Shown piece after piece: positions 38,881 through 44,985 of a stretch of DNA of 64,000 nucleotides. The stretch comes from Altererythrobacter sp. ZODW24. GTDB lineage: Bacteria > Pseudomonadota > Alphaproteobacteria > Sphingomonadales > Sphingomonadaceae. The notes beneath the pieces are model-generated. The model saw only the letters and a program-made list of their open reading frames with translations, made no database searches and was not told the DNA's origin. Within the stretch, counting starts at the first letter, position 1, and each line of letters starts with the position of its first letter. The translations under genes were made by a program, and so were the position numbers. The stretch covers positions 1,640,001 to 1,704,000 of the forward strand of contig NZ_CP031155.1 of the NCBI RefSeq assembly GCF_003344885.1, given 5' to 3'.

Positions 38881-39366
38881 TTAGCGGTAGCGCATCCGGA
38901 TCGAAATGCTCTTCACACCTCTGACCTGAAACGCAGTCTTCTTGTAACTGGGCTTGCCCAAATTGAAGACATTGATGCTGGGGTTGTTCGACATCCCGCC
39001 GCCATCGCTAAAGATGTCAGTTTTGCGGTTGCCGTTCACGTCGTGACGCACAGCGATGCCGTAAGTGCCGTTGCTCGGCACCGGCATGCAAAATGACATT
39101 GTGCCTGCTTTGGCGGGTACTTCGATCCGGCTGAGCCAACGGCCCTTCTTGAGCCAGTCAGCCTTCGTTCCGCGATAGCTCTGCACGCGAACAGTCCCGC
39201 TGGACGCTTTCACGCCCGAGATTGTGACCTTCACAGCAGGCCCCGACCCGCGGCATTTCGCAGGATTATTAGAGATCTTTTGCTTATATTGCGCCACTGC
39301 TGGCGCTGATATTGCAAGGCCGCCAAGCGCCAGCGCCGCCAATGCGGTGTTCAGCAATTTAGCCAT
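38881..39366 (-). CDS. DUF2141 domain protein (paralog 2), exported
   Basis: The 161-residue protein has a signal peptide (LLNTALAALALGGLAISAPAVAQ) and a DUF2141 domain: VKVTISGVKASSGTVRVQSYRG, then YGIAVRHDVNGNRKTDIFSDG and the closing SISIRMRYR, close to the ending of the paralog at 27440-27949. Function is unknown. It sits directly after the convergent NTP-transferase gene and downstream of the RiPP cluster. Confidence 0.88.
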   Translation of the reverse strand: MAKLLNTALAALALGGLAISAPAVAQYKQKISNNPAKCRGSGPAVKVTISGVKASSGTVRVQSYRGTKADWLKKGRWLSRIEVPAKAGTMSFCMPVPSNGTYGIAVRHDVNGNRKTDIFSDGGGMSNNPSINVFNLGKPSYKKTAFQVRGVKSISIRMRYR

Positions 39367-39506: not shown

Positions 39507-41213
39507 TCAGATTGCAACCGAGACGATCTTGCCATTGTCTAGCCGGACAGTGCGATCAGCGATCTTGGCGAGCGCCCCCCGGTGACTGATAATCAGGATG
39601 GTCAGACTGCCTTTGAGGCCAGATAGCGCCTTCGCGATGGCTTCATCTGATGCGTCGTCCAATGCGCTGGTCGCCTCATCAAGGATCAATAGCTGCGGCC
39701 TCATGATCAGCGCGCGGGCAAGTGCGATCCTTTGTCGTTCACCGCCTGAGAGCTGTTTACCGCCTTCGCCCAACTGACAATCTATCCCGCCCGGCAGATC
39801 GAAGGCGAAACTTGCGGATGCACGGCTTAGAGCGTCCCGGATTGCGTCTTCACTGACATTGGCATCTGCCCAGCGTAGATTGTCCGCCACGCTTCCGCCG
39901 AAGAGCACCGGCTCCTGCTGGACATAGGCGACGGAGCGCCGCCAGCTGTTGCGAAGTGTGCCATCAAGCGGTGTGCCATCAATTAGAACTTGGCCGTCAT
40001 CGGGTGAAATCAAACCGGCTAGCAAATCGGCGAGCGTGCTTTTGCCGCCGCCGGATGGGCCGGTCAGTGCGGTGGAGCTATTCGCGGGCAGGCTCATATC
40101 CAGTTGGTCGAGCACTTCTTGGCCCTCGCGAAAGCAGACCGTGACGCCCGCCAATTCGATTGCTTCGTTCAGCACTGGACTGTCGGCCGACGCCGCGCCG
40201 ACCAGCTCGGCATTCGCTTCGGTCTCTGCGATCATGTCGCGTGCAGCGGTAAGAGCCGGTGAATGGTGCGCCCAAATCTGCCAATTATCCTGCAGGAATG
40301 TGAACTGGCTTGCACCGCGCGCAAACAAAGCGACTAGCGGAACCATGACGATGAGCGGCACGCTCCAATGCGCCGCTGAAAGCCAGACCAGTAGGCCCAA
40401 TGCAGCGGCGGCGAGTACGGTGAAGGCAACGCGGGCCCGCCCGGTCAATCGCAGATATTCACGCTGCGTTGTGCGCAATCCGCCGAAGCTTTCGGCGATG
40501 CCCGACTGCGTGTCAGCCTCTTTGCCGAAGCCTTTAATCACACGCAGCGCGCCGAGCGCTTCTTCCAGCCGGGCATAGATCGTATCATAACCGCTGCGGA
40601 CTTCTTCGCCCAAGACACGAGCCTTGCCGCGCAGATTTGCATAGGCCAGCAGGACGACTATGCCGAGACCGCCAGCGGCCAGGGCGACCAACGGTGAAAT
40701 CACAAATGCAGCAAGTCCGATGGCGGACAGGGTCGCGGTGGCACGGATGATGTTGAAACTTGCATCCAATGCATCGCCTGTCCGATCGATGGTCGAGATC
40801 AACAGCGCACGGTTGTCGCTTTGCCGCATGCCGGACAGCGCTCGCCATTCAGCGGCGAGCAAGGCGGCGGTCAGACGCGAACGGAGGCCATCTACAATCG
40901 CGACCGACAGGTCATGGGCCGCAAGCGCGCGCCAATAATCGGCAACGGCCCGCACAGTGATCAACGCTGCGAAAATTCCCAGCCAGACCCACAGGGAAAC
41001 GCCGCCAATTAGCTCGGCGAGTTTCGGCCCAAGGAATTCAGGTGTCCCGCCTCCCATGCTTGCAAGCAGCGGAACCAGCATGGCGAAGCCGAAGCCTTCG
41101 GTCAGCGCCGCGACCACGCTCAGAAATGCCAACCAACCGATACGATTGCCGCCCGCCAGCCGCAAAACGTCACGAACAACTCCAGACTTGGGCGAGGTAG
41201 GAAGGGTTTCCAT
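39507..41213 (-). CDS. ABC transporter, RiPP exporter (lasso D-type)
   Basis: The 568-residue protein fuses a six-TM exporter domain (about 20-310) to an ATPase domain. Walker A GPSGGGKST is at about 386-394, the signature LSGGERQR from 488, and Walker B LLILDEATSALD with the H-loop SHRG. There is no N-terminal C39 peptidase, as expected where a separate B2 protease exists. It is the last gene of the B1-B2-A-C-D operon, 12 bp after the cyclase gene, and should export the matured peptide and confer immunity. Confidence 0.9.
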   Translation of the reverse strand: METLPTSPKSGVVRDVLRLAGGNRIGWLAFLSVVAALTEGFGFAMLVPLLASMGGGTPEFLGPKLAELIGGVSLWVWLGIFAALITVRAVADYWRALAAHDLSVAIVDGLRSRLTAALLAAEWRALSGMRQSDNRALLISTIDRTGDALDASFNIIRATATLSAIGLAAFVISPLVALAAGGLGIVVLLAYANLRGKARVLGEEVRSGYDTIYARLEEALGALRVIKGFGKEADTQSGIAESFGGLRTTQREYLRLTGRARVAFTVLAAAALGLLVWLSAAHWSVPLIVMVPLVALFARGASQFTFLQDNWQIWAHHSPALTAARDMIAETEANAELVGAASADSPVLNEAIELAGVTVCFREGQEVLDQLDMSLPANSSTALTGPSGGGKSTLADLLAGLISPDDGQVLIDGTPLDGTLRNSWRRSVAYVQQEPVLFGGSVADNLRWADANVSEDAIRDALSRASASFAFDLPGGIDCQLGEGGKQLSGGERQRIALARALIMRPQLLILDEATSALDDASDEAIAKALSGLKGSLTILIISHRGALAKIADRTVRLDNGKIVSVAI

Positions 41214-41225
41214 TGCGGTCAGAGC

Positions 41226-43130
41226 CTAGGGCGCGTTGCGGCCCGAGACAAACCTTGCATAGCGCACCATCATAACCGCGCGGGGGATGGCCATGCCGTA
41301 TTTCAGTGCTGCTTCATGGCCCGGGTCCGGTTCGGTCGGCCAATTGTCGATCAACTCCACCATGCGCGGAATGTCGAGCAGCTCGGCCAGTTCCGGGTCG
41401 CCTTCGGCAGCGAGCAGCTCGGCGCGAAATTGCGGCAATTGCGGTGTCAGCCGTTCGTGCCAGTCGGGTGAATGCAAGCCGGTGCGCCGATCCAGCCGCT
41501 GTGCCTCGGGCATCCGGCCTTTGGCCATTGCGCGCGCGAGCCAGCGGTCTTGCCCATCATGCAGGAACATGTCGGTGGGCAGGCCGAGGCAAAATTCCAC
41601 GAACGGGCGGTAGCTGGTGGGGTCACGCTGGGCGATGCCATAAAGTTGCTCAAAACCTTGCCTCACGTCGCCTGCTTGCATCTCGCCCCGCTCGAACAGC
41701 CCGTGCAGCATCGCCTTGCGGCTGGCATAATGCGGGCGACCAGAAAGCAAATCCGGTGCTACTTTGCCGCGCAAACCATATTTGCGGATGGCGCTGTCCC
41801 TAAGCGGACTGATCAACTCGATCGGAGCTGAATGCTTGCGCCCCAAAATCCGCGCCAACCCCCGCCAAACCGGACTGGGAAGCAGCGGTCCGATGCTGCG
41901 TGTCAGGAAGGTCCTGAACTTGCTGCTCTCGCGGTCGGGATCCCGCGCAATCGCATGGGCTAGCTGTTTCCATTTGCCGCGCAGAAGATACTCGCTGAAA
42001 CCCCAAGAGCCCGCGTTGCTGAAGGTCGCATTGCCAAACTCCGCATCGAATATGACATCGCAGCCCCGCTTCTTCGCTTCGGCATAGAGTGGATGATATT
42101 GCAGCATATTCGGCAGGCCTATTGGGGCGATCCCCGTGGCTAAGAACATATCCTGCAACTTGGTGTCGAAACCGGTCACATCATTAGAAGCATAGGGCTG
42201 CAGCTTCGGATGCATTGCGGCAAACGCTTGCACCGCTGGCCAGTCATCTGCGTAGTTCTGTGCATTGCTTTCCGTCTGATGGGCGGGATGCGGGCGGAAG
42301 GTAAAGCTGGCGAGGGTTTTGCCGTCAGGCAACTCGTCCATCAGTCGCGCGGCGACATTGGAGGAATCGAGACCGCCCGATAGAAAAACGCCCGGACACG
42401 CAAAGCCTCCCGACATTTTTCGGCAGCCTTCCGCAAGTAGCCTTTCGGCCTCTGCGAGGTGTTCTTGCCGCGACGCTTCGGATGTTTTGCGCGGGGCCAA
42501 ATGGTCGTAATATTGCCGCGCTTGCCAGCCGCTGTTTTTGATAAGTACGCTCTGGCCCAGACCAACTTGATGAGAGCCCTCGTACCAGCCAGCCATACCC
42601 TCAAGAACGGCAAACTGGTTGGCTGCAAACTTCGCCGGGTCCAGCTTTGTCGCTAAGCCGCAGGCATGGAAGACTCGCGGCACGGAGGCGGCGCAGATGG
42701 CGTCACCAGACTCCACGAAATGCAGTGGCGGTGCACGCCAAGGGCTGCGGGACAGCCGAATGTCGCCATCAGGAAATACGATCAGCGCGCAATAGTCACC
42801 GACGATGTGCAGGTCAGCGTCTTCGCCCCAATGTTCGAAAGCGGCGGCATAGACTGCGGCGGGCTCTGTTGGGCATTCTTGCGGGACTGCGCGAAGTTCA
42901 GCGCAATTATCAATAAACCCGTTGAAGAGAATGGTGAGGCCATTGGTTGAGCGATAGGGTGACCAGTGTCTGCCTGGCTTCCCGGCTTTCTTGCGGGCGA
43001 GCTGGGCGTAGATTGCTTCGCCGTCTTGCACCCAATCAGCAGGCTGCGCTGCAAATATGCCAAGGCTTTGCGCCATAGCTTTGCCAACCGGAGGGGTATT
43101 GGCCCCAGCGGTGCGGTAGAAAGCTAACAA
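41226..43130 (-). CDS. Asparagine synthetase-like cyclase (lasso C-type)
   Basis: The 634-residue protein has an AsnB-type C-terminal half with the PPi loop FLSGGLDSS at 249-257 and a glutaminase-like N-terminal half. It begins MLAFYR, so Cys2 is absent and it cannot use glutamine in the usual way. Lasso cyclases share this feature; they adenylate a side-chain carboxylate and close an isopeptide ring. The putative start is a TTG. Its neighbours B1, B2 and the ABC exporter confirm a RiPP role. The precursor encoded just upstream lacks an acidic ring acceptor, which makes its actual reaction uncertain. Confidence 0.88.
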   Translation of the reverse strand: MLAFYRTAGANTPPVGKAMAQSLGIFAAQPADWVQDGEAIYAQLARKKAGKPGRHWSPYRSTNGLTILFNGFIDNCAELRAVPQECPTEPAAVYAAAFEHWGEDADLHIVGDYCALIVFPDGDIRLSRSPWRAPPLHFVESGDAICAASVPRVFHACGLATKLDPAKFAANQFAVLEGMAGWYEGSHQVGLGQSVLIKNSGWQARQYYDHLAPRKTSEASRQEHLAEAERLLAEGCRKMSGGFACPGVFLSGGLDSSNVAARLMDELPDGKTLASFTFRPHPAHQTESNAQNYADDWPAVQAFAAMHPKLQPYASNDVTGFDTKLQDMFLATGIAPIGLPNMLQYHPLYAEAKKRGCDVIFDAEFGNATFSNAGSWGFSEYLLRGKWKQLAHAIARDPDRESSKFRTFLTRSIGPLLPSPVWRGLARILGRKHSAPIELISPLRDSAIRKYGLRGKVAPDLLSGRPHYASRKAMLHGLFERGEMQAGDVRQGFEQLYGIAQRDPTSYRPFVEFCLGLPTDMFLHDGQDRWLARAMAKGRMPEAQRLDRRTGLHSPDWHERLTPQLPQFRAELLAAEGDPELAELLDIPRMVELIDNWPTEPDPGHEAALKYGMAIPRAVMMVRYARFVSGRNAP

Positions 43131-43142
43131 GGGATTGCCTTG

Positions 43143-43168
43143 ACCGGGCGTTGTTTCGATCGCCCGGT
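43143..43168 (-). other. Stem-loop between precursor and cyclase genes
   Basis: The arms accgggcg (43143-43150) and cgcccggt (43161-43168) form a perfect 8-bp GC-rich stem with a 10-base loop, 8 bp past the precursor's stop codon. There is no U tract after it on the minus strand. Such loops often protect or partly terminate RiPP precursor transcripts so that more precursor than enzyme is made. Confidence 0.6.
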
Positions 43169-43176
43169 GTCAAAAA

Positions 43177-43308
43177 TCAGGAACGCAGGGGAGTCCCTTG
43201 AGCGCCCGAACCACTTGGTCCGGCAACATCGGCCATCTTGCCGAGCTTCTTGAGCTCTGGCTTGGTCCATTTGCCAATGACTGGCGTGTCTGCACGTATA
43301 TCCGACAT
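43177..43308 (-). CDS. RiPP precursor peptide, lasso-type leader with atypical core
   Basis: The 43-residue peptide starts at an ATG with CGGAG 6 bases upstream. The leader carries the motif recognised by B1 proteins, W14-x-x-P17-x-L19-x-x-x-G23 (lasso consensus YxxPxLxxxG), then MADVA. The predicted core from G30 is GPSGSGAQGTPLRS. No Asp or Glu occurs in it, so the usual ring between the N-terminus and a residue 7-9 side chain cannot form. The usual Thr at leader position -2 is Val. It lies between B2 and C genes in a single operon. Confidence 0.75.
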   Translation of the reverse strand: MSDIRADTPVIGKWTKPELKKLGKMADVAGPSGSGAQGTPLRS

Positions 43309-43454
43309 GGCTTGCTCCGCGAGTATCAATCTGGCTGCTCGCGAATGTGCGAAACTGCAGATAATTGAGGACGTAACTATCGAAAACCTTGCTATTTCGC
43401 AAGTGCAACATGGTAAGGATGCGCATTGCCGGGGTTTGATTACTACTCCGCATC

Positions 43455-43871
43455 TCAAATCAGTTTGAAGAGCGGCGTGTGGATGCCGCCGGAATCGCCC
43501 CATATAATTTGCTCGTCCAGCTCCACCCAAGCGTGGAGGTCATCCAATGTCCCGCGTTTGTTACCGGGCAGAGCTCCGACCACCAATTGAGTGTTGATTC
43601 CGCGGCGACGGGCCATTTTGTGTGCCGAGATTGCCTGAGGAAGACAGCGTGAGCCGGGCAGGCGCAATGCTGCGCGGGCGACTGCGCTGATGATCTGAGC
43701 GCTTTCGGCGGGTAAGCTGTCTTTAAGGCCTGCGGGCGACGGGCCGGCCGTTACCGGCTGCCCCAACCATCCTCGCCACCGGCCAAACGGCGCGAAGCGT
43801 ATCAGCAGCCGCGCCAGCACCATTAGTGCAGCAGCCTCCAACACACGCAGCCAGTGGCGCGTGTTGCTCAT
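43455..43871 (-). CDS. Lasso-type leader peptidase B2
   Basis: The 138-residue transglutaminase-like protein has C76 (GSRCLPQAISAHKMARRRGI), H113 (LDDLHAWVELDEQ) and D126 (IIWGDSG), spaced 37 and 13 residues apart, close to the catalytic triad of McjB. It removes the leader from the precursor with help from B1. The N-terminal half (about 1-60) is short and helical as in stand-alone B2 proteins. It overlaps B1 by ATGA. A 146-bp gap then separates it from the precursor gene; in that gap cttgc/gcaag forms a small dyad (plus strand 43389-43404). Confidence 0.93.
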   Translation of the reverse strand: MSNTRHWLRVLEAAALMVLARLLIRFAPFGRWRGWLGQPVTAGPSPAGLKDSLPAESAQIISAVARAALRLPGSRCLPQAISAHKMARRRGINTQLVVGALPGNKRGTLDDLHAWVELDEQIIWGDSGGIHTPLFKLI

Positions 43872-44134
43872 CGGGACTTAATGAAGCCGTTTAGCTCCAA
43901 ATCAGAAAGGAAGGTCTGAACGTCTTCGGCAATCTCAACCTCTGGTGCCCCACACTTACTCGCCAAAGTGCTGATGAGGGACGCTTCATCGCGCGTCCCA
44001 TCAATCGCCTGCCAGATGGCGAGGCCCGTGTCTTTCAGGGAATAGAACTCGCCATTCACTAGGCTCACAATCACAAGTTCGTCATCGACTTGCGTCTCGA
44101 TCAGATCGGCCTGCTGTTTGATGATCGCGTTCAT
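43868..44134 (-). CDS. PqqD-like leader-binding protein B1
   Basis: The 88-residue protein is a stand-alone RiPP recognition element: IIKQQADLIETQVDDELVIVSLVNGEFYSLKDTGLAIWQAIDG, then helices ASLISTLASK and VEIAEDVQTFLSDLELNGFI. It should bind the precursor leader and present it to B2. The ATG at 44134 is preferred; an open frame reaches a TTG at 44179 but adds unconserved residues. It is the first gene of the operon. Confidence 0.92.
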   Translation of the reverse strand: MNAIIKQQADLIETQVDDELVIVSLVNGEFYSLKDTGLAIWQAIDGTRDEASLISTLASKCGAPEVEIAEDVQTFLSDLELNGFIKSR

Positions 44135-44322: not shown

Positions 44323-44985
44323 ATGACCGCACCGCTGATTTCCCCTTCGATCCTCTCTGCCGATTTTGCCCGGTTGGGAGAAGAAGTGCGCGCCATCGAC
44401 GAAGCGGGCTGCGACTGGATCCACATCGATGTGATGGACGGGCATTATGTGCCGAACATCACTATCGGCCCCGATGTCGTAAAGGCGCTGCGCCCGCACA
44501 CAAAGAAGGTCTTCGACGTCCATCTGATGATCTCGCCGGTCGACGCCTATCTCGAAGCGTTTGCGGGTGCCGGCGCGGATATTATTACCGTTCACCCCGA
44601 AGCCGGGGCACATACCCACCGCACGGTTCAAGCCATCAAGGGTTTGGGCAAGCAGGCGGGTATCTCGCTCAATCCGGGCACCGCGGTGGACGAGCTGGAT
44701 TATCTGATCGACGATATTGATCTGGTGTTGGTGATGAGCGTCAATCCCGGTTTCGGCGGGCAGAGCTTTATCTCCAGCCAGCTGCGCAAGATCGAAGTGA
44801 TCCGCAAAATGATTGATGCCACTGGCCGCGATATCCGGCTGGAAGTCGATGGCGGAGTAAACCCTGAAACCGCACGCCAATGCGTTGCGGCGGGCGCCGA
44901 TGTGCTGGTCGCCGGATCAGCCACGTTCAAGGGTGGTCCCGGTCAATATGCCGCCAATATTTCTGCGCTAAAGGGCCACGGTTGA
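44323..44985 (+). CDS. rpe: Ribulose-phosphate 3-epimerase
   Basis: The 220-residue TIM-barrel enzyme shows [17 protein letters not shown] at the N-terminus, [19 protein letters not shown] with the metal-binding His and Asp, [19 protein letters not shown] and [12 protein letters not shown]. It interconverts ribulose-5-phosphate and xylulose-5-phosphate in the pentose phosphate pathway. Its stop overlaps the start of the heparinase-like gene by one base (TGATG). Confidence 0.97.

Follow-up and report, generated by a model that had tools for sequence, protein, structure and literature searches.

A lasso-type gene cluster of Sphingomonadales with a conserved glutamine in the predicted ring-acceptor position

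The window, the whole stretch of 64,000 nucleotides analysed here, is part (1640001-1704000) of a complete 2.81-Mb genome. Its minus strand contains a lasso-type operon at 44134-39507, with five genes in the order B1-B2-A-C-D (Table 1). A first-pass annotation had described the same five genes as one minus-strand operon, with a PqqD-like B1, a peptidase B2, a precursor of 43 residues and an AsnB-like cyclase without Cys2. All of them were found in their places, and the domain matches agree with the assignments of B1, B2, C and D.

The operon lies between a DUF2141 gene and a gene which we take from its sequence to be related to ribulose-phosphate epimerases. Many related clusters in several genera have the same neighbours, which suggests that the operon is vertically inherited and long established. 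Its gene order had been called unlike the usual, precursor-first order; this is correct, and B1-(B2)-A-C is the norm in the clade. Cyclase C of this type occurs once in the genome. No plasmid match was obtained in a search with B1. An HprK-like kinase is absent from the window cluster, and an unlinked homologue is encoded elsewhere in the same genome (G000:C1:691369). The genome also carries an unlinked NTP_transf_5 gene (G000:C1:1781862).

Table 1. Genes and features of the operon and its flanks, in window coordinates
Feature	Position	Strand	Basis and remarks
DUF2141 gene, one flank	38881-39366		
D, ABC exporter (permease and ATPase), no peptidase domain	39507..41213	-	PF00005 E 5e-31, PF00664
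C, AsnB-like ATP-dependent cyclase	41226..43130	-	Asn_synthase PF00733; SGGLDS PP-loop; TTG start; no Cys2
A, precursor peptide of 43 aa (position includes stop codon)	43177..43308	-	WxxPxLxxxG leader; orthologues in the same place
Core GPSGSGAQGTPLRS (predicted)	43180..43221	-	no Asp/Glu; Gly1 conserved in 31/41
Gln8 codon CAA, ring-acceptor slot	43198..43200	-	Q8 in 49/57 clade precursors
Leader MSDIRADTPVIGKWTKPELKKLGKMADVA, ending Val(-2)-Ala(-1)	43222..43308	-	D-[VI]-A conserved across clade; Ile(-2) precedent
B2, leader peptidase, transglutaminase-like fold	43455..43871	-	lasso_biosyn_B2 NF033537 68.8 bits (cut-off 33); PF13471 (Transglut_core3) E 1e-17
B1, PqqD-like leader-binding RRE protein	43868..44134	-	PF05402 E 3e-15; lasso_PqqD_Bac E 2e-12; ATG at 44134
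Ribulose-phosphate epimerase-like gene (presumed), other flank	44323-44985	+	name from sequence

The precursor consists of the leader MSDIRADTPVIGKWTKPELKKLGKMADVA followed by the core GPSGSGAQGTPLRS. It is not a chance open reading frame, because orthologous precursors occupy the same place in the operon in dozens of genomes, and because comparison with the precursor of a congener (L071) gives, from the Trp onwards, 13 synonymous codon differences and one non-synonymous difference. Judged from this comparison, the peptide is evidently under purifying selection. The leader contains WTKPEL and a Val at position -2, and so has the aromatic-xxPxL form expected of a lasso leader; the W-x-x-P-x-L-x-x-x-G pattern had already been recognised in the first-pass annotation.

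Apart from a few exceptions, leaders of the clade read W-x-x-P-x-L-x-x-[LVI]-G-x-x-x-D-[VI]-A; Val or Ile is followed by Ala in nearly all precursors, and the next residue is usually Gly. The leader is taken to end at Ile/Val(-2)-Ala(-1), and the residue after Ala is numbered as core position 1. There is precedent in a Bradymonas lasso precursor, whose leader is cleaved with Ile at -2, and Ile or Val at -2 has been noted in lasso precursors of Sphingomonadales (PMC10368454). If the cut were predicted one residue earlier, with the core starting from Ala, the Gln would become residue 9. With either core start, the Gln falls at one of the positions 7-9 at which known lasso rings close.

Lasso cores are expected to have Asp or Glu at position 7, 8 or 9. 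The core GPSGSGAQGTPLRS has neither at any position, as had been claimed, but the slot is not empty: it holds a conserved Gln8, which the first-pass annotation overlooked. No second precursor is present in the window, and a search of the rest of the 2.81-Mb genome gave one real hit overall, so the acidic second precursor that could have made this peptide a degenerate case was not found.

The peptides of related clusters were obtained by searching 398 Sphingomonadaceae genomes with the cyclase. Some match was found in 157 genomes and about 70 matches were strong; the peptide adjoining each strong match was read and aligned. This gave 42 precursors of the window's cyclase clade, with Gln8 in 35, Gln9 in two, Asn9 in two, Glu8 in two and Asp8 in one. 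An order-wide search with a precursor profile added 15 species (14 Gln8 and one Glu8); since Gln8 peptides made up most of the input to this profile, the search has a mild bias, but the score comes largely from the leader and a Glu8 peptide was recovered. Altogether, the 57 precursors comprise 49 Q8, 2 Q9, 2 N9, 3 E8 and 1 D8, and an amide residue occupies the acceptor slot in 53 of them.

The first-pass annotation had proposed aligning the peptides encoded between B2 and C, where a conserved acid-free core with small residues would support a new class. The aligned cores vary, and Gln8 is the residue that stands out. Gln8 is the best-conserved core residue (34 of the 41 cores aligned first), with an entropy of 1.09 bits at position 8, compared with 1.40 at Gly1 and 2.2-3.4 at the other positions. 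Both Gln codons are in use (CAG 25, CAA 10). A degenerate single case is ruled out by the 49 clade precursors with Gln8.

Some loci deserve separate mention. L039 has a tandem pair of precursors upstream of a single cyclase, both with Gln8. In the long-branched L052 and L056, Asn9 replaces Gln8, which mirrors the Glu8 and Asp9 ring sizes of known lasso peptides. A single-protein scan of contigs gave two named loci, from Pontixanthobacter luteolus and Actirhodobacter atriluteus. Precursors were found neither at L076, which lies at a contig end, nor at L162, whose cyclase is the best-matching one from outside the family (E 3e-155) and which has B1 as well as B2 downstream.

The cyclase clade with the amide types has 42 rows in the tree (aLRT 100). 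With L097 included, these rows comprise 38 amide types, three acid types and L076. The acid members L072 (Asp8), L075 (Glu8) and L083 (Glu8) are on three different branches. Outside this clade the precursors have Asp8 or Asp9, L049 excepted, and precursors beside cyclases of other alphaproteobacterial families have Asp8 or Glu8. All the residues found (D8, E8, Q8, Q9, N9) obey the 7-9 ring rule. The simplest inference is that Gln replaced an acid at the root of the clade and that the acid came back a few times at this position, as would be expected if residue 8 were the acceptor. Orthologues with Asp or Glu at the equivalent core positions had also been named as a sign of degeneracy. Only four of 57 have an acid in this slot, and these belong to the Gln clade on separate branches; by position, they appear to mark Gln8 as the acceptor slot rather than a degenerate case.

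The exception, L049, belongs to a sister clade that otherwise uses Asp, and has an independent Gln8 precursor, GTSGFNSQNAGRSFKSGGQS. Three genomes (G221, G179 and G258) contain a second A-C pair with Asp9 (L032, L034 and L043) in addition to their Gln8 clusters (L089-L091). No B1 or B2 is detectable near these second pairs, and the Gln8 and Asp9 pairs may share B1 and B2.

Cyclase C has the features of an AsnB-like macrolactam synthetase, namely an intact SGGxDS motif and a residue other than Cys at position 2. The NCBIfam lasso-cyclase model is narrow and scores it at 59 bits, against a cut-off of 525. Its AlphaFold2 model is confident (pLDDT 92.4, pTM 0.93). Along its entire length the predicted fold resembles those of beta-lactam synthetase, asparagine synthetases and the hydroxyamidotransferase TsnB9 (Z 24-28; 25-27 for beta-lactam synthetase and AsnB, 26.6 for beta-lactam synthetase 1jgt), and its C-terminal domain more weakly matches the XMP-bound ATPPase of GMP synthetase (Z 11.5). 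None of the solved structures listed is a lasso cyclase. Beta-lactam synthetase and asparagine synthetase B (1jgt, 1ct9) share the PP-loop and the predicted fold with C, but act on small-molecule substrates, and the Cys2 glutaminase activity of AsnB is absent from C.

SGGLDS, N367, R529, D556 and D586 (numbered as in the window protein) are near-invariant in the amide and acid types alike, and no cyclase position cleanly splits one type from the other. This is compatible with a shared mechanism, and would also fit a pathway that makes no use of Gln.

The pathway also has the RRE protein and leader peptidase expected of a lasso system, and the Cys and His of B2 are invariant in 64 of 64 aligned stretches. 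B2 is not always needed within the cluster. In roughly half of the Gln clusters the 12-kb locus contains no B2 and consists of B1-A-C-D or B1-A-C alone; L096, L098, L031 and L084 are among the main loci without B2, some of which also lack D. All 27 cyclase genomes tested nevertheless encode a B2-family protein, including 24 without a local B2. The distant B2 is mostly a solitary gene for a protein of about 150 aa. Among relatives without the cyclase, 5 of 36 gave a B2-family match, and these were long proteins or a fragment.

This retention supports the view that the leader has to be removed, which would free the N-terminal amine, and the distant B2 presumably serves the Gln pathway. In one genus (g3) the distant B2 mostly lies beside another B1, so supply in trans is only presumptive. 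In Pontixanthobacter luteolus (G222) and another genome of the same genus (G259), the main locus lacks D, and the distant B2 adjoins an ABC exporter and an NTP_transf_5 gene, as well as a sulfotransferase in G259 (L187 5245-9014, L189). This suggests that one lasso cluster has been split in two.

Apart from the missing acidic acceptor, every feature tested is that of a lasso pathway. Since B1, B2, C and the leader all have lasso enzymes and leaders as homologues, there is no need for the distinct RiPP class considered in the first-pass annotation; the cyclase may, as was also considered there, make a different bond. On balance we favour, with some reserve, a lasso-type pathway with an amide in place of the usual Asp or Glu, in which the ring closes on Gln8. 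The analysis establishes the conserved operon and leader, Gln8 and the predicted cyclase fold; cleavage, cyclisation, linkage and threading are expectations. Judged from homology, B1 would bind the WxxPxL leader. B2 would cut after Val(-2)-Ala(-1), as the Ile(-2) precedent suggests, freeing Gly1. The PP-loop cyclase C would then use ATP to activate the side-chain carbonyl of Gln8, the amine of Gly1 would attack it to form an eight-residue ring, and the product would be exported by D.

Carboxamides are poor acceptors without activation, and lasso cyclases are not known to use them. In PP-loop ATP pyrophosphatases of other families, such as GMP synthetase, argininosuccinate synthetase and TilS, an amide-like carbonyl is adenylated, and an amine then displaces AMP to give an amidine or a similar product. 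If C acted directly on the amide, AMP would be the better leaving group, so a macroamidine would be expected through loss of water (-18.011 Da), with the side-chain nitrogen kept. Deamidation of Gln8 or loss of ammonia would instead give an ordinary lactam (-17.027 Da), and the calculated difference between the two products is 0.984 Da. The calculated [M+H]+ is 1271.634 for the linear core, 1253.623 for the amidine and 1254.607 for the lactam. A family of lasso-like peptides with a side-chain macroamidine, formed when the N-terminal amine takes the place of AMP on a Gln8 carboxamide adenylated by the cyclase, is proposed only tentatively. The macroamidine of bottromycin would be a precedent, since it links the N-terminal amine of a RiPP with the carbonyl of an amide; in that case, however, the enzyme is a YcaO protein and the amide belongs to the backbone, rather than an AsnB-like enzyme acting on a side chain.

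Ring closure on Gln8 has to be weighed against other uses of the same enzymes. The cyclase might join another carboxylate, most simply that of the C-terminal Ser, or the peptide might stay linear, with Gln8 serving recognition or activity. The C-terminal carboxylate is the sole free carboxyl in 23 of 41 cores, and the last residue is Ser in 40 of 41 (Thr in the other), even in clusters without an HprK-like kinase; the Ser codon of the window is 43180-43182. But kinase-linked cores of the acid type also end in Ser, an amide or acid always stands 8-9 residues into the predicted core, and the acid reappears at the identical slot in separate branches. We consider this explanation rather unlikely.

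Alternatively, Gln8 could first be converted to Glu, by an unlinked deamidase or by the transglutaminase-like Cys of B2, and C could then make a Gly1-Glu8 lactam. Glu8 or Asp8 does stand for Gln8 in four members, and B2 combines a transglutaminase-like fold with its invariant Cys and His. Against this, the minimal clusters B1-A-C(-D) contain no extra conserved deamidase, many Gln clusters have B2 only elsewhere in the genome, and if the pathway required Glu, it is hard to see why 49 species should encode Gln. Prior deamidation seems a little less likely still.

A different core start or ring residue, with Gln8 a mere neighbour, is improbable. Asp7 stands beside Gln8 in 9 of 41 cores, where a seven-residue ring is possible, and Asp9 occurs in four; but positions 7-9 are free of acid in 26 of 41 cores, and 23 cores, that of the window included, lack Asp and Glu altogether. 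Decay of the pathway, to which only the missing acid points, is hardly credible given the intact five-gene operon, the selection on the precursor and the chromosomal neighbourhood kept in many genera.

Lasso peptides are both defined and searched for by their Asp or Glu acceptor, and finders requiring an acidic residue would overlook the Gln group, as the first-pass annotation suggested. An amide found throughout a clade leaves two possibilities: carboxamides can serve as substrates of a lasso cyclase, which would be a new enzymatic macrocyclisation and possibly give an amidine, or a further step produces the acid beforehand. The open-access literature searched yielded no paper on a lasso peptide with a Gln or Asn acceptor or with an amidine. 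On this basis, a Gln-acceptor lasso peptide would provisionally be new.

Several known systems resemble the window cluster in part. Phosphorylated lasso peptides have in their clusters the HprK-like kinase that is lacking here. Metanodin is likewise a lasso peptide with an unusual ring-forming residue, but this is Asn1, on the amine side, and its acceptor is a normal Asp; the 2025 paper treats even an unusual residue 1 as without precedent (PMC12670498). The bsf cluster of Bradymonas is alike in Ile/Val(-2), Gly1 and a ring size of 8, with the BsfA ring assigned to Asp8 and a Gln acceptor unmentioned in the main text (Duan et al. 2023, PMC10368454).

The split B1/B2 lasso systems of the paeninodin and fusilassin/fuscanodin type share with the window an RRE protein B1, a peptidase B2, an AsnB-like C and an exporter D, together with the aromatic-xxPxL leader and a ring size of 8-9. 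The window system differs in having A between B2 and C, Trp for the usual Tyr in the leader, and Gln where their cores have an acceptor Asp or Glu at position 7-9.
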